64,000 nt of DNA from Candidatus Eisenbacteria bacterium (lineage in GTDB: Bacteria; Eisenbacteria; RBG-16-71-46; JAFGJU01). The stretch is taken from NCBI GenBank assembly GCA_026388185.1, contig JAPLKG010000018.1, forward strand, positions 1 through 64,000, given 5' to 3'. The notes below the pieces were generated by a model that was not told where the DNA came from, did not search any database, and saw only the letters and a program-made list of their open reading frames with translations. This document shows, piece by piece, positions 2,723 to 39,364 of this stretch. Numbering within the stretch: position 1 is the stretch's first letter; each line of letters begins with the position of its first letter. Both the position numbers and the translations under genes were made by a program.

Positions 2723-2849
2723 TTCAGTCTCTCTTTGCCAGTTCGCCAGCCCTACACTCTACTTGGAATCATACCACGTTTCGGCTTTGCCGTCAACATA
2801 ACTTGCGATTACGGCGACAGTTGCGACAACTCCGGTTCCATCCCGCCCC

Positions 2850-2893
2850 AAAAACGTGAGCCGCGTGCGTGGTCACGTTCCACACGCGGCTCA
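2850..2893 (-). terminator. Rho-independent terminator after degP
   Basis: A long GC-rich stem (2857-2872 paired with 2880-2893, one bulge, 7-nt loop) is followed on the minus strand by five T residues (2850-2854). It lies 37 nt past the degP stop and is placed to end the dnaK-degP operon. Confidence 0.85.
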
Positions 2894-2929
2894 ACTATTT
2901 GGGTGGCCTGGAGCGTTCCTGCTCACGAC

Positions 2930-4450
2930 CTACTTCGGCAACCTGACCGCCACGAACAGTGTTGCGTTCGCGCGCCTGATCAGGAACAGAGCGGCCTCGC
3001 CGCGTTTCGACTTGGCGAGGGCCTTCTCGTATTCGGAGGCCGTCTTCACCTTCTCCTTGTTTACCTCCTTGACGAGATCTCCCTGGGCTATCCCTGCAGT
3101 CTGTGCAGGACTTCCTCCCTTCACGCTCGTCACGACAACGCCCTCTTCGCCTTCGTAGCCAAGCCTTGATGCAAGCGCAGAAGTGAGAGTTTCCACTTCG
3201 ATCCCGATCTCGCTCACCGCCTTCTCCCTTGTCTCGGCAGGGGCCGCCTCTTCAACGGGAAGCTCTCCGAGTTCGAGAGTGACTTTCTTCTCGTTGCCGT
3301 CCCTGAGTATGGTTGCTTCAGCTCTGCTACCCGGTTTGGTCTCTACGACCATGTTTCTTAGGGCGACGGTGTCGTCCACCTTCTTGCCGTTGAATTCGAG
3401 AATGACGTCGCCGCGCCTGAGCCCCGCTTTCTCGGCCGGACCGCCCTTGGTGATCTCACTGATTACAATTCCCCTGGGCGCTTCGAGACCCAGAGCTTGG
3501 GCCATGTTCTCGTCGATGTTCTGAATCACGACTCCCATCCATCCCCTGACGACCTTGCCCTGTCTGACGAGATCCTCCATCACTTTCTTCGCCATCTCTA
3601 TCGGAATCGCAAAACCGATGCCCTGGTTGCCTCCGGTTCTGCTGAGTATCGCCGTGTTTATACCGATGACTTCTCCGCGAAGATTCACAAGAGCGCCACC
3701 GCTGTTGCCGGGGTTTATGGCGGCGTCCGTCTGAATGAAATCCTCGTACTCGGCGAGACCGACGTTCGAACGGCCCTTGGCGCTCACAATACCTGCCGTC
3801 ACTGTCTGCTCCAACTGCTCCGAGAACGGACTGCCGACTGCGAGCACCCATTCCCCGACTTCCATTTGTCGCGAATCTCCGAACCTCGCCACGGGAAGAT
3901 CGTCGGCCTCTATCTTTATCACCGCCACGTCCGTCTTGGAGTCGCTTCCCACCACCTTCGCGTCATACTTCTTATCGTTGTAGAGGGTGACTTGGATCTT
4001 GTCGGCGTCGGCAATCACGTGATAGTTGGTCAGAACGTATCCATCCTTGCTGACAATTACTCCGGACCCAATTCCTCTCTGCCGCATTTCACCCTCGGGG
4101 ACGGGCCCGCGGAAAAACTTCCCAAAAAAATCGTCTCCGAAAAACTCATCGAAAGGAGAACCGGGGGTGTTTCTCTGAACGTCTGCACTCTTCACGACCT
4201 TCTCGCTCGAGATGGTGACGACGACCGGCCTCACCATTTTTGCCACCATCACGAAGGCCTTGCTTGTGTTCTGGAGCAGCAGAAGTCCCTCTGGAATCTG
4301 CTCGGACGAGCCGAGCGTAACGGCCTTCCCTTTCTCCGAGCCAAAACCGAATCTGACAAGCCCGACGTCAGAAGCAATGTAAATCCCAAGAGTAAGACCG
4401 ACAAGAATGCAGCAGATTGAGAAGAAAAGGTGTTTGTGCCTGGATCTCAT
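2930..4450 (-). CDS. degP: DegP/HtrA family periplasmic serine protease (Do)
   Basis: This is a 506-residue S1C protease with chaperone and proteolytic roles in envelope quality control. One N-terminal membrane segment (about residues 7-28) exports or anchors it. The catalytic triad is visible as H144 (TNYHVI), D174 (KTDVAVIK) and S250 (GNSGGA). Two PDZ domains follow at about 300-390 and 415-506. I chose the ATG at 4450 because GGAGG lies 7 nt upstream; the longer TTG frame from 4483 lacks such a site and overlaps the dnaJ stop. It is the last gene of the dnaK-DUF1844-grpE-dnaJ-degP operon, which suggests that cytoplasmic and periplasmic folding stress are controlled together. Confidence 0.96.
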   Translation of the reverse strand: MRSRHKHLFFSICCILVGLTLGIYIASDVGLVRFGFGSEKGKAVTLGSSEQIPEGLLLLQNTSKAFVMVAKMVRPVVVTISSEKVVKSADVQRNTPGSPFDEFFGDDFFGKFFRGPVPEGEMRQRGIGSGVIVSKDGYVLTNYHVIADADKIQVTLYNDKKYDAKVVGSDSKTDVAVIKIEADDLPVARFGDSRQMEVGEWVLAVGSPFSEQLEQTVTAGIVSAKGRSNVGLAEYEDFIQTDAAINPGNSGGALVNLRGEVIGINTAILSRTGGNQGIGFAIPIEMAKKVMEDLVRQGKVVRGWMGVVIQNIDENMAQALGLEAPRGIVISEITKGGPAEKAGLRRGDVILEFNGKKVDDTVALRNMVVETKPGSRAEATILRDGNEKKVTLELGELPVEEAAPAETREKAVSEIGIEVETLTSALASRLGYEGEEGVVVTSVKGGSPAQTAGIAQGDLVKEVNKEKVKTASEYEKALAKSKRGEAALFLIRRANATLFVAVRLPK

Positions 4451-4479
4451 GTCTATTCCTCCGAAAGTGTAGCGTGAGT

Positions 4480-5607
4480 TCAATGCTCGAGTCCACCCTC
4501 CCTGGCGAACTCTTCGATGAGCTTCTTCTGCTTTTCAGTGATGTTGGACGGTGTAACCACCTCGATCTTTACGAACTGATCCCCCTGAAACCCGTTTTTC
4601 TTCAGACCCAACCCCTTGAGTCTGAACGTCACACCATTTTGAACACCGGCCGGTATCTTGAGTTCCACCTTACGGCCGTCAACCGTGCTCACTTTTATCT
4701 TGGTGCCAAGAACTGCCTGCGCGATATTGATGGGGACAGTGCAGTGTATACTTGCGCCTTTCCTGGTAAAGAAGCTGTGAGGGCCCACCTTGACCTGGAT
4801 GAAGAGATCGCCATGAGGCCCGCCTGCTACGCCAGGCTCGCCCTGACCTCTGAGGCGTATCTTTTCTCCGGAGGAAATCCCCTTGGGGACAGTGACGACG
4901 TATTTCTTTCTGGCGTTGGCCGTTCCTCTCCCGGCGCAAGCCGAGCAAGGCTCGCCGGGGAGCACGCCTCTTCCCAAACACCTTGGACACGGCCTGCTGA
5001 CGGCAAACGCGCCCTGGGCAAAAGATATGCTGCCACGGCCCCCGCACTCCGGGCAGGTCGTTCTCTTGGAGCCAGGTTTTGCACCGGTCCCGCCACACAC
5101 GGTGCAATTTTCCTCTTTGGGAATGGTTATCGTTGTCTTGCCGCCCTTGACCGCCAGTTCGAAGGGCACCTCGAGCTCCAGGTTTATGTCTTCGCCCTTC
5201 TGGGGACCGTAGCTTTCCGCTCTCACTCTGGAGCCACCAAAGAGACTGCTGAAGATATCTCCAAGCCCGCCAAAACCACCGAGGTCTTCGTACGAGAACG
5301 TGGCGCCCTGTCCGGCGCTCCCCGTGAAGGGACCGCCAAAGTCAGAGCCCCGAAATCCCCCGGACCCCGTGAAGACCCCACTCCCCAGCCTTCTCATCTG
5401 ATCATACTGAGCGCGCTTCTGCGGGTCACTCAAGACGTCGTAGGCCTCCGAGACGTCCTTGAATCTGTTCTCGGCGGCCTTGTTACCGGGGTTGGCATCC
5501 GGGTGGTATTTCTTTGCGAGCTTTCTGTAGGCTTTCTTTATCTCGTCAACACCCGCGGTCTCGCTGACCCCCAGAATCTCGTAGAAGTTTTTTTGGGTCT
5601 GCGGCAT
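4480..5607 (-). CDS. dnaJ: Co-chaperone DnaJ (Hsp40)
   Basis: The 375-residue type I DnaJ stimulates DnaK ATPase activity and delivers unfolded clients. It has a J domain at about residues 7-70 with the HPD motif at 35-37, a Gly/Phe-rich linker (about 75-130), and four zinc-binding CxxCxGxG-type repeats ([32 protein letters not shown]). The C-terminal substrate-binding domains follow. The ATG lies two bases after the grpE stop, so translation is probably coupled. The length is normal for the family. Confidence 0.98.
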
Positions 5608-10045: not shown

Positions 10046-10639
10046 TTAGAACATGAAGTCGACGCCGGCACCGATAGTGAAATACTGGGTGCTATTGTCT
10101 TCCGTCATTACGTTGTGGAAGCGCGCACCAAAATCGATTAGGGCCGTCGCAGAGATGGGGAACTTGACACCGCCGCCGATGTTGAAGCCGAAGTCACTCT
10201 CGCTGTCGCTCTCTGTGTCGTCAGCGATTGTGATCTCAGCGGTCTCAAAATACATCCCCAGTCCACCCTTCAGATACGGTGTCACTGACGAGCTCATGGG
10301 GAAATTCGCCACGAAGTCCACCATCACGGGCATGAACTGAAAATTCGCCTCAACGTCTTCGCCGCTCAAGGCCTCCAACACTGCCACAAGGTCATCGTTG
10401 GCAGCGAACTTGCTCCACTCCATGCCCACTTCCAGACCATACTTGCCGGTGAACATATAGCCGACACTTGCGCCTGCAGTAAGCCCGCCGTCGTAGGCGT
10501 CCCCGAAATCACCCATCGGAAGACCGTAGCCGACGTTGAGGCCGAGCACCCACGCCGAGCTGGTGGTTTCCATCTGGGCAAAAGCTGCAGTCGCGCCGAA
10601 AAACAACAGTATCAATGGCAGAACAACAAACTTCTTCAT
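10046..10639 (-). CDS. Outer-membrane beta-barrel protein (OmpW/opacity-like porin family)
   Basis: The 197-residue protein has a classic signal peptide (MKKFVVLPLILLFFGATAAFA). It then alternates hydrophobic/polar strands rich in Gly and aromatic residues, such as 'GLNVGYGLPMGDFG' and 'YLKGGLGMYFE', and ends in phenylalanine, as outer-membrane barrels do. About eight strands fit the length. I chose the ATG at 10639, 8 nt after AGGAG. The substrate or function is unknown. It lies downstream of lolA on the same strand and has its own terminator. Confidence 0.8.
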   Translation of the reverse strand: MKKFVVLPLILLFFGATAAFAQMETTSSAWVLGLNVGYGLPMGDFGDAYDGGLTAGASVGYMFTGKYGLEVGMEWSKFAANDDLVAVLEALSGEDVEANFQFMPVMVDFVANFPMSSSVTPYLKGGLGMYFETAEITIADDTESDSESDFGFNIGGGVKFPISATALIDFGARFHNVMTEDNSTQYFTIGAGVDFMF

Positions 10640-10808
10640 TTCCATTTCTCCTTTTTGGAATAAATCTCGCGCTTTAAGAAAAACGAATACTTGCTGCCCG
10701 GGCCACCTCCTTCCAGCTTTCCAGCTTTTCAGTCCCAAGCATGCCGAATGAAATCAGGCGTCTCTTCTCTCGCCGAGATTGTCAACGGAACTATCACTGA
10801 TGCAGTCA

Positions 10809-11525
10809 TCACTGAAGCGACTTCATAGTTCTTGACGGTGACTCATCGGACTTCTCGGAATAATCTATGATCTCCACTCCCTTGCCGGCGTTTAGCTCAA
10901 ACAAGGACTCGCTGAGCCCGAGATTCACTTTCACGTTGGAAAGCACCATTCTCACCACGTCACCGCCGGCCTCTTCGACTTCTATCAGGCGGGGCAGAAG
11001 GAGATTTGTGTCTATGCCCAGCGTAAGCTTCCGGACACCCATCCCCTCCTCTTTTGGTACAAGTTCCACGTAGCGGAATCTTGAGTCCCTCTGTCTCGCA
11101 GGCGCTATCGTAAACGTCTTCTCCAGATTCCCGAGTGGTTCCCAGAAGACGAACAAGTCCTGCTCTTCCTTGCGGGCGGTGAGGTCAAAACGTTGGATCT
11201 GATTCAAGGAAGGAATATAAACCAACACCACGGAGTCCTTGACGAGTAGCTTCTGGCGTTCGGGCTCGGTGTAATCAAGCAGCATCTCCTTGGGCTTCCG
11301 GAGGTACAGCCTTCCCTTTGCCTGAATCTTCTCGCCGTTGATCTTTATTTCCCGCGTCTGCTCAAAGGAAGCACTGAGTGACTGCAAGGACGAAAGCCTT
11401 GCGTCAACGCGGACTAGCAGGTCCTGCAGATTGCCTTTCTGCGTGAGTCCCACCAACGGGATGGCAAACGCCACCAGGAAGAGAGAAGTCACTATGACAT
11501 AGATGGTCTTCGCCCTGAAACTCAT
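10809..11525 (-). CDS. lolA: Outer-membrane lipoprotein carrier protein LolA
   Basis: The 238-residue periplasmic protein has an N-terminal signal segment (about 7-27) followed by the LolA fold. The opening helix contains 'ARLSSLQSLSASFEQTREI', then come 'AKGRLYLRKPKEMLLDYTEPERQKLLVKD' and 'VYIPSLNQIQRFDL', typical of LolA. It shuttles lipoproteins, or lipids, across the periplasm to the outer membrane. It is on the same strand as and 77 nt after the Tes/Mss-like enzyme, in a cluster with a lipoprotein and a beta-barrel protein, which fits an envelope-biogenesis unit. Confidence 0.88.
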   Translation of the reverse strand: MSFRAKTIYVIVTSLFLVAFAIPLVGLTQKGNLQDLLVRVDARLSSLQSLSASFEQTREIKINGEKIQAKGRLYLRKPKEMLLDYTEPERQKLLVKDSVVLVYIPSLNQIQRFDLTARKEEQDLFVFWEPLGNLEKTFTIAPARQRDSRFRYVELVPKEEGMGVRKLTLGIDTNLLLPRLIEVEEAGGDVVRMVLSNVKVNLGLSESLFELNAGKGVEIIDYSEKSDESPSRTMKSLQ

Positions 11526-11602
11526 TCTCTACCCCAATTTCACTTCCGTGTGAGCCCCCGCTCCACCAAGGGTTCACGCTTTACCCGGAGGCCGCTCAAC
11601 TG

Positions 11603-13261
11603 CTACCCGAAAGCGACGCGAGAACCTCCCGCCTTGCCACCCTTATCCGGACCTTCAAGAGGCTGAGAGAACTCGGCCTCGATCATCCTCCTGAACGTGG
11701 GACCAGAGTTGTATGTACAGAACGGATACAACATTCCGTCCGGTGCTGCATAGTGAACCACGCACCGCCTCACTCTGTCAACGTCATAGTTGTACGCATC
11801 CATGAAGTGCATGCCCGCCACAAGAAGCGTCTTGTAAGTCTTTCCCTTGCCGTCCTTGCTTCGGCCGATCCTCTTGTCCATCAGTCCCTGAAGGGTCGTG
11901 AGAAAAGTGGAGAACGTCAGACCCGCGGGTGCCTCGTCCTCTCTGAAATGCTTCTTTATGGAGTTGAACGCCTTCATGCGGGCAAAAGACTGGAAGCGCG
12001 ACTTCGGTACTGTGCGAGCAAACTTCTCGAGGTCAAGGAACATGGCCTCCACGTCTATGAACTGCGGGGCTGCCACTATGTCCTTCGTGTCGGGCGATAC
12101 AAAGAGATAGGTCGCAAGCGAGCAGTGAGGATGACAGGTGAGATGAACCGTTTCCTCTCCTCGCAAGGCGGAGACAAACCTGGTGAAAGGAGCAATGCAG
12201 GCAGTCGGATACCAGTCTCTCCTCGCCTGTGCCAGCCCCGTCTGCTTTTCCACGGCCCACGCGAGGTCGGTCAGCGTAAACCGCTTCTTCTCTCTCTCCT
12301 TGTAGGAGATCCGTCCGGTGAAAACGACCGGCTGATAGCTTATGCCGCTTACCACGTCAATGTTCTTGATTGCGTATCTCAGGATGTCACCGACCTGATC
12401 GTCGTTGAACCCCTTGACTATTGTAGGAACGAAAACAATATTCATTCCACTTCTTCGAATGCTCTCTATGGCTCTTTCCTTGACCGCAAAGAGATCTCTG
12501 CCGCGAGTCTTCCTGTAAACCTCGTCATCGAGACCGTCAAACTGAAGGTAAATGGTGTGAAGCCCTGCCCTTGCGCATTCCTCTGCAAACTTATGATCGG
12601 TCAGATTGATTCCGTTTGAGGCTATCTGAACGTGTGAGAAACCCATCTTCCTCGACGCTCTCACTACGTCCAGAAAACGCGGGTGGAGAGTAGGCTCGCC
12701 CCCGGAGAACTGTATAATCCTGCCGGCGACCGGTTGTTCAGTTCTGAAGGCCTTGAGCATCTGAACGACTTCTTCGTAGGATGGCTCGTAGACGTAACCG
12801 GCCACGTTGGCATTGGCAAAGCAGATGGGGCAAACCAAGTCGCACCGATTCGTCAGGTCGATGTTTCCGAGGCCTGTGTGGCTCGTGTGTCGGTTGCAGA
12901 GACCGCATTGGCCGGGGCACTCCGAGGCATGACGCACCCTGGGGTTCAAGAGCCCTTGACCGTCATCGAAGGACCACTTTTCAGCCTTGAGATAGAGTTC
13001 CGCGTCAGACCAGTACAGGTCTCTTACGTGGCCGTGCTCCGGACAGGTCTTCTCCATGATGACCTTTCCGTCCTCCTCGAATAGGCGCGCGTCTATCACC
13101 TTCATGCAATCGGGACAGAGGGAACGGATGGCCTTGGGGAGACCCTTGGGCAAGTCGTTGATCGGAGCCCCAAGAAACGTGGTCTGCGGCCCCGTGGATT
13201 TTCGTCCGGATCTTGCGTCTACTTCGGTGCCTGGAGCGTAAGTGGGGGTCGAAGCACTCAT
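11603..13261 (-). CDS. Radical SAM enzyme of the tetraether/membrane-spanning lipid synthase family (Tes/Mss-like)
   Basis: The 552-residue enzyme has the radical SAM motif CDLVCPIC (Cys 140, 144, 147), the SAM-binding GGEP (about 187-190), and additional cysteine groups upstream (LCPDC at 49/52, a CPEHG at 73, CPGQCGLC at 115/119/122). Further cysteines lie near the C-terminus, ending in '..CVVHYAAPDGMLYPFCTYN'. This layout matches the MJ0619/Tes family, which joins lipid tails through carbon-carbon bonds to make membrane-spanning lipids; bacterial homologues (Mss) are linked to diabolic-acid-type lipids. The product here is an inference. The ATG at 13261 has AAAGGAG 8 nt upstream. It sits between a lipoprotein gene and lolA. 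Confidence 0.8.
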   Translation of the reverse strand: MSASTPTYAPGTEVDARSGRKSTGPQTTFLGAPINDLPKGLPKAIRSLCPDCMKVIDARLFEEDGKVIMEKTCPEHGHVRDLYWSDAELYLKAEKWSFDDGQGLLNPRVRHASECPGQCGLCNRHTSHTGLGNIDLTNRCDLVCPICFANANVAGYVYEPSYEEVVQMLKAFRTEQPVAGRIIQFSGGEPTLHPRFLDVVRASRKMGFSHVQIASNGINLTDHKFAEECARAGLHTIYLQFDGLDDEVYRKTRGRDLFAVKERAIESIRRSGMNIVFVPTIVKGFNDDQVGDILRYAIKNIDVVSGISYQPVVFTGRISYKEREKKRFTLTDLAWAVEKQTGLAQARRDWYPTACIAPFTRFVSALRGEETVHLTCHPHCSLATYLFVSPDTKDIVAAPQFIDVEAMFLDLEKFARTVPKSRFQSFARMKAFNSIKKHFREDEAPAGLTFSTFLTTLQGLMDKRIGRSKDGKGKTYKTLLVAGMHFMDAYNYDVDRVRRCVVHYAAPDGMLYPFCTYNSGPTFRRMIEAEFSQPLEGPDKGGKAGGSRVAFG

Positions 13262-13319
13262 CTGACACACTCCTTTCCCTACAAATCCGCCCTAGGGCAA
13301 AGATTGTACTCCGTAGGCC

Positions 13320-14147
13320 TCAGTCCGCAAGGGGAAAAAGGTCCTTGAGCCTGAACACCTTCTCGTCTATATCGTCATTTAGCACTGTTCTATTGAACAC
13401 GAGCCTCGCCCTGACGCCGTCTGAAGGCAGGGAGACCGTTATCTCGTGCGGAAAGAGTACTCCTCCCGACCTCGTGTAGTCACGGTAGTCCACTCCTACG
13501 CGCTCTGCACCGTCCGCATCGACAAATTCCAGTCGAATGAGGTTTCCCGTTTTCGAGTCAACGATGCCTATTCTTTTCCCGTCGTCAGAGTCCTCTTCAA
13601 ACCTGCATCTGCCTTTTTCGATCTCTTCAGACATGCACTCCGTGACACAAAAACGTTTCGGGAAAAGGACGGTTCTGACGGCGTCGAGCAGAAGACCCGT
13701 AGCCTCGGGCAGTAGAGCTTGAGTGACGGCGTCGCCGAGCGAACCTGCCAGCAAGACGGAACTCGAGGGGATGAACGCCCGGATGGAGTCGCCATCGAGC
13801 GCGACGCTCGCGAGGCTCACGAACCCGGCATACACATTCAATCTCATTCTGTCGGGTTCTTGTGCGACGAGCCCGACCTGCAGGCGCTCGCTGCGTCGGG
13901 GTTCCTCAAAACTCAAGTACACATCGAGGGTGGCCTTCACGGAACGAATCTCGGGAGCTTCTTTCTTGAGCAGATTCATTGTCTTCGCGGAACAGGGCCG
14001 CTTTTCTCCCGCAGTCTGCACGGGGGGGCTCACGGCACACGAAGTGCAGAGAGAAGCGACAAGAAAGGCGGCGACCAGAATGGGGAGGATCACGTTGCGG
14101 TCCGCGGGACCACGACTCAACGAAGTACGCCTGGAAAGTGATTGCAA
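13320..14147 (-). CDS. Probable envelope lipoprotein (DUF4292/LolB-like)
   Basis: The 275-residue protein has an N-terminal hydrophobic segment (about 20-36) ending in a cysteine-containing 'SLCTSC' that could be a degenerate lipobox. The body resembles DUF4292/LolB-like proteins: 'IRSVKATLDVYLSFEEPRRSERLQVGL', then 'PDRMRLNVYAGFVSLASVALDGDSIRAFIPSSSVLLAG', a beta-sheet half-barrel pattern. The start is TTG at 14147, supported by GGGGTGA 7 nt upstream and only 14 nt from the preceding stop. Presence beside lolA suggests an outer-membrane partner for lipoprotein or lipid acceptance, but this is not proven. Confidence 0.65.
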   Translation of the reverse strand: MQSLSRRTSLSRGPADRNVILPILVAAFLVASLCTSCAVSPPVQTAGEKRPCSAKTMNLLKKEAPEIRSVKATLDVYLSFEEPRRSERLQVGLVAQEPDRMRLNVYAGFVSLASVALDGDSIRAFIPSSSVLLAGSLGDAVTQALLPEATGLLLDAVRTVLFPKRFCVTECMSEEIEKGRCRFEEDSDDGKRIGIVDSKTGNLIRLEFVDADGAERVGVDYRDYTRSGGVLFPHEITVSLPSDGVRARLVFNRTVLNDDIDEKVFRLKDLFPLAD

Positions 14148-14161
14148 GCTAACTTCACCCC

Positions 14162-15301
14162 CTATCGAAGATGTGTCTTCATGACGCGACAGAGTTTTTC
14201 CATGTCCTGTGCATTGTTGTAAAGATGAGGGCTTACCCTGACGGCCTTCTCTCTTTCTGACACGATAATTCGCTCCATCCTGAACGAGACCTTGAGAGAA
14301 GCGGTGTCATCGCAAGAGAATGACAGAATCCCTGATCTGTGTTCGGAGGCCAGAGGGCTTCGGATGGTAACCGGCAGTTGCTTCAGCTCGTCTATGAGAA
14401 TGTCAAGCAGTTCAAAGATGTGTTGCTGGATTTGCTTCACTCCGACGGACAAGATGAGCTTGAGGGACTCTCTAAACCCGGCAAGATCCTGGTATGAGAG
14501 CGTTCCGATCTCGAAACGCCTGGCGTCCTCGACCAGTTCAAAGGGGAGTCCCACAATGGACTCGAAAGCCGCGCCCATCCCCTTGACGGAGAGCCATCCG
14601 GCAAATTGAGTGGACATGGACTTCATGAGATCCGGAGAGCAGTAGAGAAAACCCGTTCCGAACGGCGCGAGGAGCCATTTCTGCCCGCCCGCGGCAAGAA
14701 CGCCCACGTTGCAGCGCTTTACGTCGATGTCGATCGCTCCGACTCCCTGGATACCGTCAACGACCAGGACGGCGCCCGCGTCCTTGCAGATTTCGCCTAT
14801 CTCTTCCAAGTCGGCTTTGTAGCCGTTGTGAAACGAAACAAAGCTGATCGCAACCGCCCTTGTTCTACCGTCAATGCCGTCTCTTATGTCGTCTGCAGTC
14901 GTAAAGCCTGCGCCTGGAGGCAAGACTGTGACCTCCACGCCCTTTCTTCTCAGATTCTCCCACACGCACACGTTTGCGGGAAACTCGCTCCGTCCGACGA
15001 TGACCCTGTCGCCGGGCTTGAGCGGCAGCCCCTGCGCCGCGATATTGAGGGGAATGCTCGTGTTCCAACTCAGGGCGATCTCATCAGGAGCAGCGTTTAT
15101 GAGTTCTGCAATCTGGGACCGGACCTGCGGAACGATGTTCTCAAAATCGCTGATGTGCTCGAACTCCACCTTGTGACAGGCCCTCATGTAACGTGTCATC
15201 GCCTCGATGCAGGTTACGGGCAAGATAGATCTCGATGCGTTGTTCAGATAGACGTAATTTTCAGCGTCAGGAAACTGGGATCTTATTGCATTAATGTCCA
15301 T
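14162..15301 (-). CDS. Aminotransferase class V (cysteine desulfurase-like fold)
   Basis: The 379-residue PLP enzyme contains 'YVYLNNASRSILP' at the N-terminus, the cofactor-binding aspartate in 'VLVVDGIQGVGAIDID', and the Schiff-base lysine in 'LAAGGQKWLLAPFGTGFLY'. No conserved NifS/SufS active-site cysteine loop is evident, so it is more likely an isopenicillin-N-epimerase-type or other class V enzyme than a true cysteine desulfurase. The substrate is unknown. It is the first gene of the lipoprotein-Tes-LolA run (14-nt gap to the lipoprotein gene). Confidence 0.85.
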   Translation of the reverse strand: MDINAIRSQFPDAENYVYLNNASRSILPVTCIEAMTRYMRACHKVEFEHISDFENIVPQVRSQIAELINAAPDEIALSWNTSIPLNIAAQGLPLKPGDRVIVGRSEFPANVCVWENLRRKGVEVTVLPPGAGFTTADDIRDGIDGRTRAVAISFVSFHNGYKADLEEIGEICKDAGAVLVVDGIQGVGAIDIDVKRCNVGVLAAGGQKWLLAPFGTGFLYCSPDLMKSMSTQFAGWLSVKGMGAAFESIVGLPFELVEDARRFEIGTLSYQDLAGFRESLKLILSVGVKQIQQHIFELLDILIDELKQLPVTIRSPLASEHRSGILSFSCDDTASLKVSFRMERIIVSEREKAVRVSPHLYNNAQDMEKLCRVMKTHLR

Positions 15302-15511: not shown

Positions 15512-17611
15512 GTGATTGAGTCACTTCTGAGAACCATCCAGAACGAAATCTCCGGCGAGCGCGCGAAGGGACTTCTAGACAAGCTCGCCTCGTGCCACCG
15601 AATTCAGTCGAGTCCCGGCTTCAGAGAAGCCGCACACATCTGTGCTGAAGCTGCAAGGAGCTGGGGGCTCGAGACCGAGATTCTCACTTTCAGCGCGGAC
15701 GGAAACACTTCCTACTGGGGATGCCCCATTCCGAAGGAGTGGGCGGCTTCAAGCGCGAAGCTAGAGTTGCTCGAACCGCAACGAGCAAAGCTTGCAGACT
15801 TTTCGGAATGCAAGATCTCGCTAATCCAAAGAAGTGCTCCGACTCAGGTGGATTCGGTTGAGATTGTGATTCTTGATGACGGTCTCGAAAGAGAAGAGTA
15901 CGAGAAACTGGACGTCGCCGGTAAGCTCGTCTTGACCAGAGGAAGCGTCGAAAGGGTGCACGAACTCGCCGTTCAGGAGTTCGGCGCTCTCGGAATTATC
16001 TACGACGGCATGCGAGAAGTAAAACCTGTGCGCAACCGGTTCGACCTACCCGACGCGCGCGAATACACCTCGTTTTGGTGGAGACCCGGCGAGAAACAAT
16101 GCTTCGGCTTCGTGCTCACCCCGCGTCAGGGCGAATGGCTGAGGAACCTCGCTTTTTCCGGCGGTGACGAGGCGCACAATAGTGCGGCAGCCGGAGTGTC
16201 CGTGCCCCGCCCGCCAGTGAGGCTCGTGGCAAGGGCGAGCGTGGACTCGACGTTCCGCGACGGCGCCATGGAAGTAGTCTCCTGTTTCATACCCGGAAAC
16301 AGTCTCGCGGAGGTCGTGCTCGTAGCACATCTCTGCCATCCTCAGCCTTCTGCGAACGACAACGCATCAGGGTGCGTCGCGGTCCTAGAAGCCATGAGGA
16401 CTCTCAAGTTCCTTATCGCGGCGGGAAAGATCCCTCCTCCAAGGAGAGGAATCAGGGCGCTCCTGCTTGCAGAGATAACGGGTTCCATGTCGTATCTGGC
16501 CAACCACGAGGAGCGACTCCGGGACTTCGTCTGTGCGCTGAACGTAGACATGGCCGGCGAAAACCAAACACTGTGCGGCAGCACCTTCATGTTGGAAGTT
16601 CCACCCGACGCCTGCAGGGGTTTCTCGGTGGAGCTCGGCTCGGCGATACTGGAACAAGTATTCAGGAAAGACGGTCTTCCAGGCAAGGCCGGCAGCCTCA
16701 TGCAAGAAAGAATCGCCGTCGTGCCGTTCGCCGGAGGAAGCGATCACGTCACCTTCTCCGACCCCGACGTCGGTGTGCCCTGCCCCTCGCTCTGCCAGTG
16801 GCCGGACAGGTTCTATCACACAAGTATGGACACGCCGGACAAAGTGGATCCCGCAATGCTCTCGGCAGCGGCGGCACTCGCGGCCTGTTACGCCGCCTTC
16901 GTCGCGCGCGCGGGCGAGAAGGAAGCGAAATGGCTTGGCCTCGAGATGCTCGCGAGCCTGAAGCAATTCGTGATGAGAGAGGCAAACCGGAGGCTTACTT
17001 CGGCGCTCGAGAGCGACTCCGGCCACGCAGAGGAGTTGTCTCGCCTGAGGAAGAAGCTCTCGTATCGCCTCGAGATAGCGAAGGACTCTTTTGAACACTT
17101 GGGTCGGCTCGGCATGCAGGCGCCTGACGTGAAGGAACTCAAAGAGGAGGCCAACGAATGGGTCAGAAGAGAGTTTGCAGATGCCGAGAGAGACTATCTT
17201 GCTCTCCTCGGTCGCTCGAAGGGTCCCTCGGAACGGAATAGAGCGGAAGACGTCCCGAACGCGGGCGGCGGAGCGGACGGCCAAAAAGACCATGATCTCG
17301 ACGGCGTTGTTCCGGCAAGAGTGCTTCGCGGCCCCACGGGGTTCGGTATGGTCGCGAGGACTTCCTGGAGCAGACTGAGCAAGAATGACCGAGAGGGACT
17401 CTGGCGGCTTCTGAGACTCCACGATAAGGTGCCGCGCGCATTCGCACCGCTTTCCTGGTATTGGGTCGACGGAGAGCGTTCCCTGGCCGAGATTGCGGAC
17501 TTGGTCGAGATGGAATGCGGCGTGAGGGACGACACATTTCTCGGAAGCTACTATTCGCTTCTTGAAAAGGTCGGTCTTGTCAAGATGCAGAAAGCGAGAC
17601 TGGGCAAATGA
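15512..17611 (+). CDS. DUF4910/M28-fold aminopeptidase-like protein
   Basis: The 699-residue protein has no signal peptide, so it is probably cytoplasmic. The core resembles DUF4910 aminopeptidase-like proteins with M28-type ligands: H and C in 'VAHLCHPQPSANDNASG' (the bridging Asp in NDNASG), E in 'LLLAEITGS', D in 'NVDMAGEN', and H in 'DRFYHTSMDTPDKVDP'. A PA-like insert is likely between about 110 and 250. The last 100 residues look like a small winged-helix domain ('WYWVDGERSLAEIADLVEMECG'), perhaps for dimerisation. Start GTG at 15512. It overlaps the thioesterase gene by ATGA. Confidence 0.8.
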   Translation: MIESLLRTIQNEISGERAKGLLDKLASCHRIQSSPGFREAAHICAEAARSWGLETEILTFSADGNTSYWGCPIPKEWAASSAKLELLEPQRAKLADFSECKISLIQRSAPTQVDSVEIVILDDGLEREEYEKLDVAGKLVLTRGSVERVHELAVQEFGALGIIYDGMREVKPVRNRFDLPDAREYTSFWWRPGEKQCFGFVLTPRQGEWLRNLAFSGGDEAHNSAAAGVSVPRPPVRLVARASVDSTFRDGAMEVVSCFIPGNSLAEVVLVAHLCHPQPSANDNASGCVAVLEAMRTLKFLIAAGKIPPPRRGIRALLLAEITGSMSYLANHEERLRDFVCALNVDMAGENQTLCGSTFMLEVPPDACRGFSVELGSAILEQVFRKDGLPGKAGSLMQERIAVVPFAGGSDHVTFSDPDVGVPCPSLCQWPDRFYHTSMDTPDKVDPAMLSAAAALAACYAAFVARAGEKEAKWLGLEMLASLKQFVMREANRRLTSALESDSGHAEELSRLRKKLSYRLEIAKDSFEHLGRLGMQAPDVKELKEEANEWVRREFADAERDYLALLGRSKGPSERNRAEDVPNAGGGADGQKDHDLDGVVPARVLRGPTGFGMVARTSWSRLSKNDREGLWRLLRLHDKVPRAFAPLSWYWVDGERSLAEIADLVEMECGVRDDTFLGSYYSLLEKVGLVKMQKARLGK

Positions 17612-24022: not shown

Positions 24023-24937
24023 CTATACGATTCTAGCAAGTATGAAGCCGACTGCAACCAATATTCCGGTGAACGCGTGGATCAGAATCGTGGCGGCGTT
24101 GGCCGGGGCCAACTTCTTGGAGTCGGAATAGTTGAGGATGGCCACATTCATGGCTCTCATGGCCAGAGGAAGAGTGACAAGACCCAGCAGGCAGTAAGCA
24201 GGGACGGCGTGTGCGATCACCGGAATCAAGATGGAAAGATAAGCAGCGAGTGTCAGTGTGAGATAACCCCAGACCGCCTTTTCTTTTCCGAGCCTCGCGA
24301 CCACGTGATTTTTCCCCACCGCCCTATCTGCGGCAAGGTCGGGAAATTCGTTTATGTAAAGGACGTCCGCGATGAGTATCGCGACCGGCAAAGAGGCCAA
24401 GAAGGCGCCCTGAGAGAACTGGCGCACCTGAACGTAATAGGAGCCAAGAGTCATGAGAATTCCAAAATTGATCCCAACCACAAGCTCCCCGATCCCGCGC
24501 GCCGCCAGGTTAACGGGGGGCGCGGTGTAGAAGAAACCGCAGAAGGCACCGATCATGCCGAGGACCAGAATGGCGGGTCCCCTCGTCACGGTAAGGTAGA
24601 GCCCAATCAGGCCGCCGATGGCAAAAAGGACGATGGCTTCCGTGAGAACCGTTCTCGGATTCAGAAGTCCCTTCTGAATGAGACGACTTCCTCCAGTAAA
24701 CGGTCTTACGAAGTCCACGTTTATTTCGTCATTGCCACTTTTGTGATCGAAGTAGTCGTTCGCCACATTAGTGCCGGCGTGAAGACAGACGCCGGCAACG
24801 AGCGTGAGCAAGAAGGGAAAGAGCTCGAAATGACCCGTGTACGACCAGGCCACCGCAGCGCCAAGGATCACGGGCACCATCGAGGCCGTAAAGAAAGGAG
24901 CCCTGAGTTCTTCCAGGAGCAAAAGGAACTTCTTCAA
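24023..24937 (-). CDS. menA: UbiA-family prenyltransferase, MenA-like
   Basis: The 304-residue integral membrane enzyme with about eight helices has both aspartate-rich motifs of the UbiA family: 'NVANDYFDHKSGND' and 'YINEFPDLAADRAVGK'. The pattern (NDYFDHK..GND) is closest to 1,4-dihydroxy-2-naphthoate polyprenyltransferase, so a role in menaquinone synthesis is likely; a menaquinone-linked Sdh/Frd operon lies in the same window. I chose TTG at 24937 (GGAGGA 6 nt upstream, family-typical N-terminus) rather than the upstream GTG at 24991, which has no ribosome-binding site. Confidence 0.8.
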   Translation of the reverse strand: MKKFLLLLEELRAPFFTASMVPVILGAAVAWSYTGHFELFPFLLTLVAGVCLHAGTNVANDYFDHKSGNDEINVDFVRPFTGGSRLIQKGLLNPRTVLTEAIVLFAIGGLIGLYLTVTRGPAILVLGMIGAFCGFFYTAPPVNLAARGIGELVVGINFGILMTLGSYYVQVRQFSQGAFLASLPVAILIADVLYINEFPDLAADRAVGKNHVVARLGKEKAVWGYLTLTLAAYLSILIPVIAHAVPAYCLLGLVTLPLAMRAMNVAILNYSDSKKLAPANAATILIHAFTGILVAVGFILARIV

Positions 24938-25153
24938 AGTGATCCTCCGGGAAAACGGGAGTTCTCGGGCGACGAGGGCAGATTGTCTCACAATAAACGG
25001 AGCCGGGGAAGGGTAACCTTCAGAAACGGCGACGATGGAGGTCGAACTGAAGCCTCGCCTGCGTTCCTTTGCCGCAGCTCGTCCCTGCGGGGCTACCCTT
25101 TCAAACCCCGGCCTCTGAGCTCGAGTTTGACACAGTTTTGTACCCCGGCGGCA

Positions 25154-27347: not shown

Positions 27348-27427
27348 ACAATGCATAATGTCTGCAAATAATGTACAATCGCTGGAAATTCGAATTCATC
27401 CGGCACAGATCCGTTGGGAGGGAAAAC

Positions 27428-29362
27428 ATGAAAAACCGACTGAGAGCAGCAGCGCACAGGGACCGTTTTTTCGCTCACAAATTGGCTGCGTTCAGTTTCG
27501 CGCTGGTTGTCATGTCTTCGATTTTCTGGCTGGCACAAGCCTATGGTTGCGATACCCCGACCGCAAGAAGCGAGCGCGTATCGCGAAAACAGTCTCATTC
27601 GCGGCCGGATACTTCGGAGATCCTGTCGGACATCAAGTCTCTCGCGAGCGACAAACTGGAGGGCAGAGGGACGGGGCAGAGGGGAGGAGAGCTGGCGGCA
27701 AGTTTCATAGCGGACGAGTTCAAGAAGACGGGGCTTAGGCCCGCGGGTGGCCCGAAGAGCTATTTCCAATTCTTTGACGCCACCGTCGGCGTGCACATGG
27801 GAAAAGACAACTCGCTCAAGGTGGCCTTTCCTCAAGGAGAGAGCACTTATGTCGCCGACAGAGACTTCATTCCCTTCAGCTTTTCGAGCGTGGGAATCGC
27901 GTCCGGCCCCGTGACTCTTGCCGGATACGGTATAAGCTCGGAACACTATGGCTACGACGACTACTCGAAGGAAAGCCCGCAGGGGAAAATCGTCCTTGTG
28001 ATGAGACACGAGCCGCAGGAACAGGACGAGAAGAGCGTTTTTGCCGGAAAAGAGCTCACCCATTACTCTGATCTCCGCTACAAGGCTACAAACGCCAGAG
28101 AGCACGGTGCGTCCGCAATAATCATCACGGCAGACCCGCTGAATCATCCGGACGAAGAGGACGAACTGTTACCTCTTCAATCACTCGAGGGACTCGGAGA
28201 CTGCGGAATCCCGGCGATCCAGGTCAAAGAGAGAGTCGCCGAGGCAATACTGCGCGCGGGAGATTTCAACTTGGAAGATCTCCAACGCAGGATCGACAGC
28301 CTGCTTGTGCCCGTCACCATTCAAGTACCTTCGGCGGACGTCTCTCTGCGTGTAGATCTCGTGAAGGAAAAGAAGAAGGTGGCCAATGTTGTCGGCGTCA
28401 TCGAGCCATCTCGCGGCAACCCGACCGAATACGTGGTCGTCGGTGCGCACTATGATCACCTGGGAACATCAAGTCAGTTTTCTCTCTCGGGAACGAAAGG
28501 CGTCCACAATGGTGCCGACGACAACGCTTCCGGGGTCGCGGCGATGCTTGAGCTCGCCAGGATATTTTCAGCCAAGAGGGACTCTCTCAAGCGAGGAATA
28601 GTCTTCGTGGGATTCGTCGGAGAGGAGATCGGCGTCCTGGGTTCGACGTTCTACGCAAGCAACCCCGTTGTGCCTCTAGACAAGACGGCGCTGATGCTCA
28701 ATCTCGATATGGTCGGAAGGATGAGAGACCACAAACTCTACGCGGCCGGCACTGGAAGCTCCCCCATCCTCAAGGGACTTCTCGCGAGGGCCAACGAAAA
28801 GCTGAATCTACAGATCGCAAGCACGGAAAGCGGGTTCGGTGGAAGCGACCACTTCACATTTTACGCTCACAATGTGCCCGTCCTTTTCTTCTTCACCGGG
28901 GCTCACGAGGACTATCACAAAGTCACCGACGATTGGGGCAAGATAAACGTCGACGGCATCGCTTCCGTCGTCAGACTGTCGGCACACGTGCTCTCAGAGA
29001 TTGTTTTTTCCGAAACGCCGGTGCCTTTCACGCGAGCGGCTGCCGATACTGCAGGCCCTCCCGGTGGAGAGGGCTACGGGGCCGGCCGCGGAGCCTACTT
29101 CGGGATCGTGCCGGATTTCGGAGGAGAGCCCGACAAGGGCGCAAAGATTTCCGGAGTGAGCGAAGGAAGCCCTGCTGAAGAAGCGGGACTCAAAGCGGGT
29201 GACGTTATCGTGCAGTTCGCCGGAAAAACGATCACAGGTCTATACGACCTCAGCTTCGCGCTCAAGGAAGAGAAACCTGGAGACGAAGTGGAAGTGATCG
29301 TCGTAAGGGACGGTGCGAGGATTACGTTCAAGGCTCGACTCGGGAAGAGAGGAGCAAAATAG
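27428..29362 (+). CDS. Exported M28 aminopeptidase with PA and PDZ domains
   Basis: The 644-residue protein starts at an ATG with GGGAGGG 5 nt upstream. An N-terminal hydrophobic segment (about 18-38) ends near a cysteine, so it may be a lipoprotein. A PA-like domain (about 110-270) is followed by the M28 core: 'VVVGAHYDHLG', 'GADDNASGVAAMLELA', 'GFVGEEIGVLGS', 'LNLDMVGRM' and 'HEDYHKVTDD' supply the two-zinc ligands. A C-terminal PDZ domain (about 555-640, 'SEGSPAEEAGLKAGDVIVQFAG') likely guides substrate or partner binding. It probably cleaves N-terminal residues from peptides in the periplasm and diverges from the OPT transporter gene. Confidence 0.93.
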   Translation: MKNRLRAAAHRDRFFAHKLAAFSFALVVMSSIFWLAQAYGCDTPTARSERVSRKQSHSRPDTSEILSDIKSLASDKLEGRGTGQRGGELAASFIADEFKKTGLRPAGGPKSYFQFFDATVGVHMGKDNSLKVAFPQGESTYVADRDFIPFSFSSVGIASGPVTLAGYGISSEHYGYDDYSKESPQGKIVLVMRHEPQEQDEKSVFAGKELTHYSDLRYKATNAREHGASAIIITADPLNHPDEEDELLPLQSLEGLGDCGIPAIQVKERVAEAILRAGDFNLEDLQRRIDSLLVPVTIQVPSADVSLRVDLVKEKKKVANVVGVIEPSRGNPTEYVVVGAHYDHLGTSSQFSLSGTKGVHNGADDNASGVAAMLELARIFSAKRDSLKRGIVFVGFVGEEIGVLGSTFYASNPVVPLDKTALMLNLDMVGRMRDHKLYAAGTGSSPILKGLLARANEKLNLQIASTESGFGGSDHFTFYAHNVPVLFFFTGAHEDYHKVTDDWGKINVDGIASVVRLSAHVLSEIVFSETPVPFTRAAADTAGPPGGEGYGAGRGAYFGIVPDFGGEPDKGAKISGVSEGSPAEEAGLKAGDVIVQFAGKTITGLYDLSFALKEEKPGDEVEVIVVRDGARITFKARLGKRGAK

Positions 29363-38082: not shown

Positions 38083-38284
38083 TCAGGCCCGGCTTAGCTA
38101 ACCATAAGGTGCACAAGGCCGTATGCAGTAACAATCAAGCAAAGCAGAATTCGTTCAAAGCGCGTAGGTCTCGTCGTGCCACCGTACAGAGAAATCAGAT
38201 TGATGTGTCCTCGTTCTTCGTATAGCATAGCTCCATCAGACATGGAGAAATCGCGAAATCGCTCAGACTCGAGTGGAGATGGAC

Positions 38285-39364
38285 ATGGCTAGCAGCAATT
38301 ATTCCGTCGTGGTTGGAACTGGCAGTTACATCCCTCCAAGAAGGGTGCTCAACAACGATTTTCTGCAGCATCAATTTTGTGACTCGCAAGGGATATTGCT
38401 CGACCGACCCAACGAGGAGATTGTAAGAAAGTTTGAACAGATCACCGGTATCACCGAGCGAAGGTACGCTACGGACGACCTGGTCACTTCCGACATTGCT
38501 CTGTATGCAGCGGTGGACGCCCTCGGATCATCAGGAATCGACAAGGAAACCCTGGACTACATTATTCTGGCTCACAATTTCGGGGATGTGAGGGCGAACA
38601 ACAGAAGAACCGATCTCGTCCCAAGTCTTGCCGCACGTGTGAAGCAGAAACTGGAAATCCGAAACCCCAAGACGGTGGCTTACGATCTGCCTTTTGGCTG
38701 CCCCGGCTGGCTCCAGGGGATGATTCAGTCCGATTATTATCTGAAGTCCGGTGATGCAAAGAGAATTCTCGTGATAGGAGCGGAGATTCTTTCGAGGGTC
38801 TCGGACCCTCACGACATAGATAGCATGATATACGCTGACGGAGCGGGAGCAACAATCCTGGAGGCAACGCAGAGTAGCGAACCCGTTGGAATACTCTCTC
38901 ATGCTGCGAGATCCGATACCCATCACGCGTATCTGCTTTACATGGGCGGGTCAAACAAGCGCGACGGTGGAGGTAACGAGTTGTTCTTGAAGATGCATGG
39001 TCACAAGCTGTACGAGTACGCTCTGGGAACGGTGCCCGGAGTCGTGAAGGAGAGCCTCGACAAAGCAGGGTTATCGTTGAGCAACGTAAGTAAGGTTCTG
39101 TTACACCAGGCGAATGCGAAGATGGATGAAGCGATCTTGAAGCGTCTGTTCAGATTGTATGGAGAGGAGAGGGTCGCGCATCATATTATGCCCATGACAA
39201 TATCCTGGCTTGGAAACAGCTCTGTGGCCACCATGCCCACGTTGCTCGATCTACTGCTCAAGGGAAGGATTGAAGACCATGGATTGGCAAGGGGAGACAA
39301 CGTCGTCTTTGCGGCCGTCGGAGCAGGTATGAACATAAACTCGCTTGTGTACAGAATGCCATGA
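38285..39364 (+). CDS. 3-oxoacyl-ACP synthase III (FabH/KAS III)-family protein
   Basis: The 359-residue thiolase-fold enzyme has the catalytic triad of KAS III: Cys in 'LPFGCPGWLQG', His in 'LLHQANAKMDEA' and Asn in 'SWLGNSSVATMPTLL'. It condenses an acyl-CoA or acyl-ACP starter with malonyl-ACP, or a related acyl transfer. The sequence is of the Bacteroidetes-type 'family' form rather than a housekeeping FabH, and no fab genes flank it. The ATG at 38285 has GGAG 6 nt upstream. A weak promoter (TTGATG-17-TAGCAT) lies at 38200-38228. The gene and the preceding RRM region are somewhat AT-richer than their neighbours. Confidence 0.88.
   Translation: MASSNYSVVVGTGSYIPPRRVLNNDFLQHQFCDSQGILLDRPNEEIVRKFEQITGITERRYATDDLVTSDIALYAAVDALGSSGIDKETLDYIILAHNFGDVRANNRRTDLVPSLAARVKQKLEIRNPKTVAYDLPFGCPGWLQGMIQSDYYLKSGDAKRILVIGAEILSRVSDPHDIDSMIYADGAGATILEATQSSEPVGILSHAARSDTHHAYLLYMGGSNKRDGGGNELFLKMHGHKLYEYALGTVPGVVKESLDKAGLSLSNVSKVLLHQANAKMDEAILKRLFRLYGEERVAHHIMPMTISWLGNSSVATMPTLLDLLLKGRIEDHGLARGDNVVFAAVGAGMNINSLVYRMP

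Follow-up and report, generated by a model that had tools for sequence, protein, structure and literature searches.

The window, a stretch of 64,000 nucleotides from a Candidatus Eisenbacteria genome, carries a gene for a full-length member of the tetraether lipid synthase (Tes) family, an identification to which profile, cluster ligands, predicted fold and tree all lend full support. The enzyme probably (we put it at roughly 0.68) joins the tails of bacterial glycerolipids made by Ger, giving membrane-spanning lipids that resemble branched GDGTs (brGDGTs). Observed directly are the protein's family, ligands, fold and branch, the presence in the same genome of PlsY and of a Ger-like protein with two BadF domains, and the adjacency of tes and ger in other bacteria. 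For archaea, Tes activity is established (PMC8941075, PMC9433317); lists of bacterial homologues appeared in 2022 and 2025 and described their activity as unconfirmed.

Results

Identity and fold of the protein

The gene and the metal sites of its product are given below; residues are numbered throughout on the 555-residue frame that begins at GTG.

11603..13261, minus strand: tes, which encodes a homologue of tetraether lipid synthase with 552 aa when started at ATG (NF045702 581.6 bits, 7TOL E 7.8e-132)
13034..13117, minus strand: rubredoxin-type iron site CX2CX20CX2H (C52, C55, C76, H79), aligned with MJ0619 C9/C12/C33/H36, invariant in 41 sequences
12887..12919, minus strand: N-terminal auxiliary [4Fe-4S] site (C118, C122, C125, H128), aligned with MJ0619 C73/C77/C80
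12821..12844, minus strand: radical SAM motif CX3CX2C (C143, C147, C150), PF04055 89 bits, invariant in 41 sequences
12122..12124, minus strand: C383, probable C-terminal [4Fe-4S] cluster ligand, invariant in 41 sequences
11717..11812, minus strand: C-terminal cluster region (M487, C503, Y507, C518), mapped onto MJ0619

The sequence-only reading had placed the gene at 11603-13261, and that frame was borne out on the minus strand: its ATG at 13261, the likely start, is preceded by GGAAAGGAG (GGAG ribosome-binding site). An alternative start, GTG at 13270, extends the intact frame to 11603-13270 and 555 residues. In the NCBIfam search the protein scored 581.6 bits (E = 1.1e-174) on the Tes equivalog NF045702, above the cut-off of 450; an intein-bearing Tes model ranked next, below its own cut-off. 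The nearest sister profile, that of the TrsS radical SAM (seleno)proteins (NF045646), gave 339.8 bits against a cut-off of 490, and a TrsS identity was rejected. Zn_ribbon_HMPTM and Radical_SAM were the only Pfam domains found; GMGT synthase (Gms), a SPASM protein (PMC11186832), was rejected because the C-terminal SPASM domain was absent in this search. The sole close solved structure in the PDB is that of the M. jannaschii enzyme MJ0619, or GDGT-MAS (7TOL, 7TOM), with which the protein shares 42% identity, and the E-values for 7TOL and for the Tes profile exclude a chance match.

Every ligand of the MJ0619 structure paper that could be mapped by alignment is retained. The radical SAM motif and three extra cysteine sets picked out from the sequence are all present, the latter being C52/C55/C76/H79, C118/C122/C125/H128 and C383/C503/C518 with M487, as is the C-terminus described there, with HYAAPDG at residue 506 and PFCTYN at residue 516. 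Rubredoxin, radical SAM and C-cluster residues, M487, C503 and C518 included, are invariant across the 41 homologues, and Y507 is found in 39 of them; M487 aligns with the labile Met439 and Y507 with Tyr459 of MJ0619. Judging from conservation and from MJ0619, C383 is a probable ligand of the C-terminal cluster, presumably together with C503 and C518, and H128 would be the "conserved histidine" ligand of the N-terminal cluster. The predicted model (pLDDT 86.7) matched 7TOM with a Z of 54.4 and an rmsd of 2.2 over 479 residues, the top match from another family being MoaA (Z 21.8). The protein therefore resembles archaeal Tes in domain order, in its four metal sites, in its Met439/Tyr459 equivalents and in its full-length fold, but it differs in its bacterial host and in its place on a bacterial branch of the tree. 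Bacterial Tes also share two features that the archaeal sequences compared lack: an extension at the N-terminus that bears a conserved T..G motif, and a Gly-Arg loop (R470) present as an insertion.

The sequence-only reading had labelled the gene Tes/Mss-like, and while the Tes assignment stands, the lumping is not supported. Mss of Bacillota and Thermotogota is alike in that the same tail-to-tail coupling has been proposed for it and its modelled catalytic architecture is Tes-like (PMC13274423), but the literature treats it as an enzyme of its own, and recent surveys count Mss and Tes homologues apart (PMC11868695, PMC13274423).

Distribution and phylogeny

The window lies on contig C18 of a genome of 2.62 Mb in 20 contigs (97.9% complete), the nearest named relatives of which are Candidatus Eisenbacteria MAGs. 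Among 47 genomes of the phylum, Tes exceeded its cut-off in all three members of this Eisenbacterial family and in none of the other 44. A fourth phylum genome (G045, L012 3-1238) has a partial TrsS-like relative that lies below both the TrsS and the Tes cut-offs and for which no closer family is named.

Homologues and loci were gathered by a scan with two peptide patterns, for which 80 matches were listed; Chloroflexota and Halobacteria Tes lie outside the sample, sampling is biased toward close relatives, the loci are not independent and the genomes are MAG-derived. In a tree of 82 rows, including 56 bacterial Tes and one partial, distant outgroup row, all 56 sampled bacterial sequences grouped on a single branch, separate from archaeal Tes (support 97/100). 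Within it the three Eisenbacterial proteins formed a clade (support 100/100) whose nearest bacterial relatives the tree does not resolve. The tree nests the bacterial branch among the archaeal sequences, a position compatible with a single archaeal-to-bacterial transfer, although the root is weak because the outgroup is one partial, distant row. With that same root, the phylogeny against archaeal Tes, which the sequence-only reading had proposed as a check, places the protein in Tes and outside the TrsS-like sister.

Tes of Acidobacteriota (Solibacteraceae, Bryobacteraceae), groups that include a brGDGT producer (PMC10087280), are 55-60% identical to the Eisenbacterial protein, fall on the same branch and come from genomes that also encode a Ger/PlsA homologue. 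Unlike the Eisenbacterial genomes, those tested had no GGGP synthase over the cut-off, and their tes genes lack LolB/LolA flanks.

Gene neighborhood

In the window, tes lies within a co-directional run that includes the following genes.

14162..15301, minus strand: aminotransferase-like gene (class V) at the head of the run (PF00266 176 bits)
13320..14147, minus strand: gene for a LolB/DUF4292-like lipoprotein, immediately upstream of tes (PF14125 24 bits; the NCBIfam model LolB1 falls short of its cut-off, E 4.8e-7)
10809..11525, minus strand: lolA, directly downstream of tes (PF03548 62 bits)
10046..10738, minus strand: outer-membrane beta-barrel gene, next in the run (PF13505), kept in relatives

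The order LolB-like gene, tes, lolA (window 10809-14147) is common to all three family genomes. In both relatives (G013 and G014) the LolB-like gene is in the same place, as are lolA (55-61% identity) and the aminotransferase-like gene (58-66% identity), and the rest of the run, from the aminotransferase to dnaK, is conserved in G013, a complete genome on a single contig (CP070702.1). That tes might be a relic, mis-binned or non-functional is suggested by the 20-contig assembly and by the fact that the named relatives are known from metagenomes only, yet we consider this highly improbable: the frame is intact, all ligands are kept, and GC and GC3 are similar to those of the neighboring genes. 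Because all three family genomes carry tes, one of them on a single complete contig, and gene order is conserved, the gene represents neither contamination nor decay.

Here genes for lipoprotein sorting flank that of a putative membrane-spanning-lipid enzyme, and they do so in an outer-membrane bacterium. Elsewhere in the window are a FabH-like gene for an atypical ketoacyl-ACP synthase III (38273-39364), which could bear on branched fatty acid starter units, and three large M28-family peptidase genes (140-2722, 15512-17611 and 27371-29362), which suggest a peptide-degrading lifestyle.

The conserved Lol flanks, found in 3/3 family genomes, favor a different reading, in which a Tes-fold enzyme acts on another substrate, such as a lipid of the envelope or the acyl chain of a lipoprotein, tied to the Lol genes, or gives macrocyclic (intramolecular) products only; with the archaeal Tes homologue MA_1114, no GDGT formed and macrocyclic archaeol appeared only in traces (PMC8941075). 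We regard this as quite unlikely, since none of the Tes loci compared from outside the family showed the LolB-tes-LolA arrangement, whereas adjacency to ger recurs in several phyla, and since the active-site residues match those of a lipid-coupling enzyme.

Linkage of tes and ger in other bacteria

A Ger/PlsA-type gene adjoins tes on the same strand in 11 of the 56 bacterial loci sampled (L049, L053, L052, L054, L056, L086, L087, L092, L093, L096 and L099), from Acidobacteriota, Glassbacteria, Planctomycetota and one further lineage (L056). The distance is 0.1-1.5 kb, except for 4.4 kb in L056, and among the 41 bacterial loci that extend 1.5 kb or more to either side of tes, ger lies no more than 1.5 kb from tes in nine. 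In a second sample, of Planctomycetota, three genomes of which overlap the first set, 14 of 30 tes genes were immediately preceded by the part of ger that encodes its C-terminal half. Two BadF domains, the architecture of the validated glycerol ester reductase Ger (PMC13274423), were present in all five tes-linked proteins tested (domain copies counted by BLAST). Sequence alone does not separate Ger from the plasmalogen enzyme PlsA (PMC13274423), nor an alkyl from a vinyl ether product.

Archaeal loci show a different partner: geranylgeranyl reductase is encoded 186-254 bases downstream of tes in seven loci of Methanomassiliicoccales type (L072, L084, L088, L090, L094, L098 and L101). Among the loci sampled, geranylgeranyl reductase stood beside tes in no bacterium and ger beside tes in no archaeon. 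The difference in ger linkage between bacteria and archaea is weakly significant by itself (Fisher p 0.03, with non-independent loci); the stronger argument is the rarity with which two given genes would fall within 1.5 kb of each other by chance. We found no prior report of the linkage in the literature searched, the founding Mss/Ger paper lying outside that search. Because the gene is often beside that of an ether-lipid enzyme in related bacteria, Tes is a good candidate maker of bacterial membrane-spanning lipids.

Lipid genes of the Eisenbacterial family

The Eisenbacterial Ger-like protein (G000:C5:98073-102395, 1441 aa) has two PF01869 (BadF) domains and a DUF2229 domain, as validated Ger does (PMC13274423), and is 81% identical across the family, which also has PlsY. 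Ger homologues were found in nearly all Tes-bearing bacterial genomes tested, and Ger-like proteins are also encoded by two Eisenbacteria that have no Tes. Unlike at the linked loci, the Eisenbacterial tes and ger are apart, on different contigs or separated by about 600 kb, and this distance, with the Lol-type neighbors of tes, counts against our main reading, as do the Ger-like proteins of Eisenbacteria without Tes and the likeness in sequence of Ger and PlsA.

Archaeal-type genes accompany these. GGGP synthase is present in all three family genomes (in the window's genome TIGR01769 208 bits, cut-off 161.6; best PDB match 4JEJ), and so is a UbiA protein whose best PDB match is the DGGGP synthase 6M31 (E 2.8e-24). 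Isoprenoid tails are possible because the genomes encode these two proteins, and the Eisenbacterial Tes could then couple tails from its own GGGP and DGGGP synthases into isoprenoid or mixed tetraethers. In keeping with this, archaeal ether lipids have been predicted for FCB-group bacteria with such genes, and activity has been shown for the enzymes from Cloacimonetes (PMC7852524); a Poribacteria bin and a KSB1 bin, both with tes, likewise have GGGP synthase and geranylgeranyl reductase. We nevertheless hold the isoprenoid reading to be unlikely. No geranylgeranyl reductase exceeded its cut-off in the family genomes (97 bits against 158.8 in G013, E 1.8e-7 in G000), whereas Tes has been shown to act on fully saturated chains (PMC9433317), and no G1P dehydrogenase exceeded its cut-off in the family genomes searched; because of these two results, fatty-acid-derived tails are likelier than isoprenoid ones. 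The UbiA protein scores below the DGGGP-synthase cut-offs. Moreover, among the Tes genomes tested, those of Acidobacteriota, Glassbacteria, Planctomycetota and Myxococcota had no GGGP synthase over the cut-off, and this enzyme is therefore not a general requirement of Tes in bacteria.

A UbiA gene in the window (24023-24991), considered as a possible DGGGP synthase, is MenA, and a UbiA near the GGGP synthase resembles decaprenyl-phosphate phosphoribosyltransferase. The radical SAM genes that lie next to each other on contig C2 encode MiaB/MtaB.

GGGP synthase directly follows alaS in the Eisenbacterial genome (L130 6535-10121) and in the KSB1 bin (L174 310-3741), the latter combining tes, geranylgeranyl reductase and GGGP synthase. 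The Poribacteria bin with tes (L063) encodes at L172 (G068:C281) a DGGGP-synthase-like protein (1-456, cut by the contig end), a geranylgeranyl reductase (2793-3998) and a GGGP synthase (4133-4885), followed by a bacterial-type PpiD/SurA-type gene; as read from these genes, it would hold an archaeal ether-lipid gene set together with Tes in a bacterium.

Discussion

The Eisenbacterial protein is probably a catalytically competent Tes. If it works like the M. jannaschii enzyme, SAM bound at the CX3CX2C cluster would be cleaved to a 5'-deoxyadenosyl radical, and this radical would abstract a hydrogen where the tail of one lipid chain ends. The resulting carbon radical would be parked on the C-terminal [4Fe-4S] cluster until a second round joined it to the end of a second tail, so that the finished lipid spans the membrane. 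As tails, alkyl or acyl chains derived from fatty acids and belonging to ordinary glycerol-3-phosphate lipids are the most likely. Their ether bonds would presumably come from the co-encoded Ger/PlsA-like enzyme, the putative partner of Tes in the Eisenbacterial species, and the product may be a brGDGT-like or a mixed ether/ester membrane-spanning lipid. Two published observations count in favor of this coupling of bacterial glycerolipids: MJ0619 made in E. coli binds bacterial phosphatidic acid (PMC9433317), and Solibacter usitatus, a brGDGT producer, has Tes and PlsAR homologues (PMC10087280).

The sequence-only reading had proposed that a homologue in this lineage would bear on the source of branched GDGT-type bacterial lipids. 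That link is strengthened by the tes-ger linkage in related bacteria and is plausible, but the literature searched demonstrates no lipid product for any bacterial Tes. New here are the occurrence of Tes in Eisenbacteria, its linkage to ger, and the finding that a few lineages of bacteria combine Tes with ether-lipid genes of archaeal type.

It is conceivable, though distinctly unlikely, that Tes, the Ger-like enzyme, GGGP synthase and the DGGGP-synthase-like enzyme together yield isoprenoid-tailed or isoprenoid/fatty-acid hybrid spanning lipids on bacterial membranes; if true, such lipids would bridge the archaeal-bacterial lipid divide within one living cell. The recurrence of tes with ger in bacteria, as opposed to tes with geranylgeranyl reductase in archaea, offers a concrete, testable two-enzyme hypothesis. 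How well branched tetraethers can serve as climate proxies is limited by the question of which organisms make them and with which enzymes, and our findings widen the candidate producers to Candidatus Eisenbacteria.
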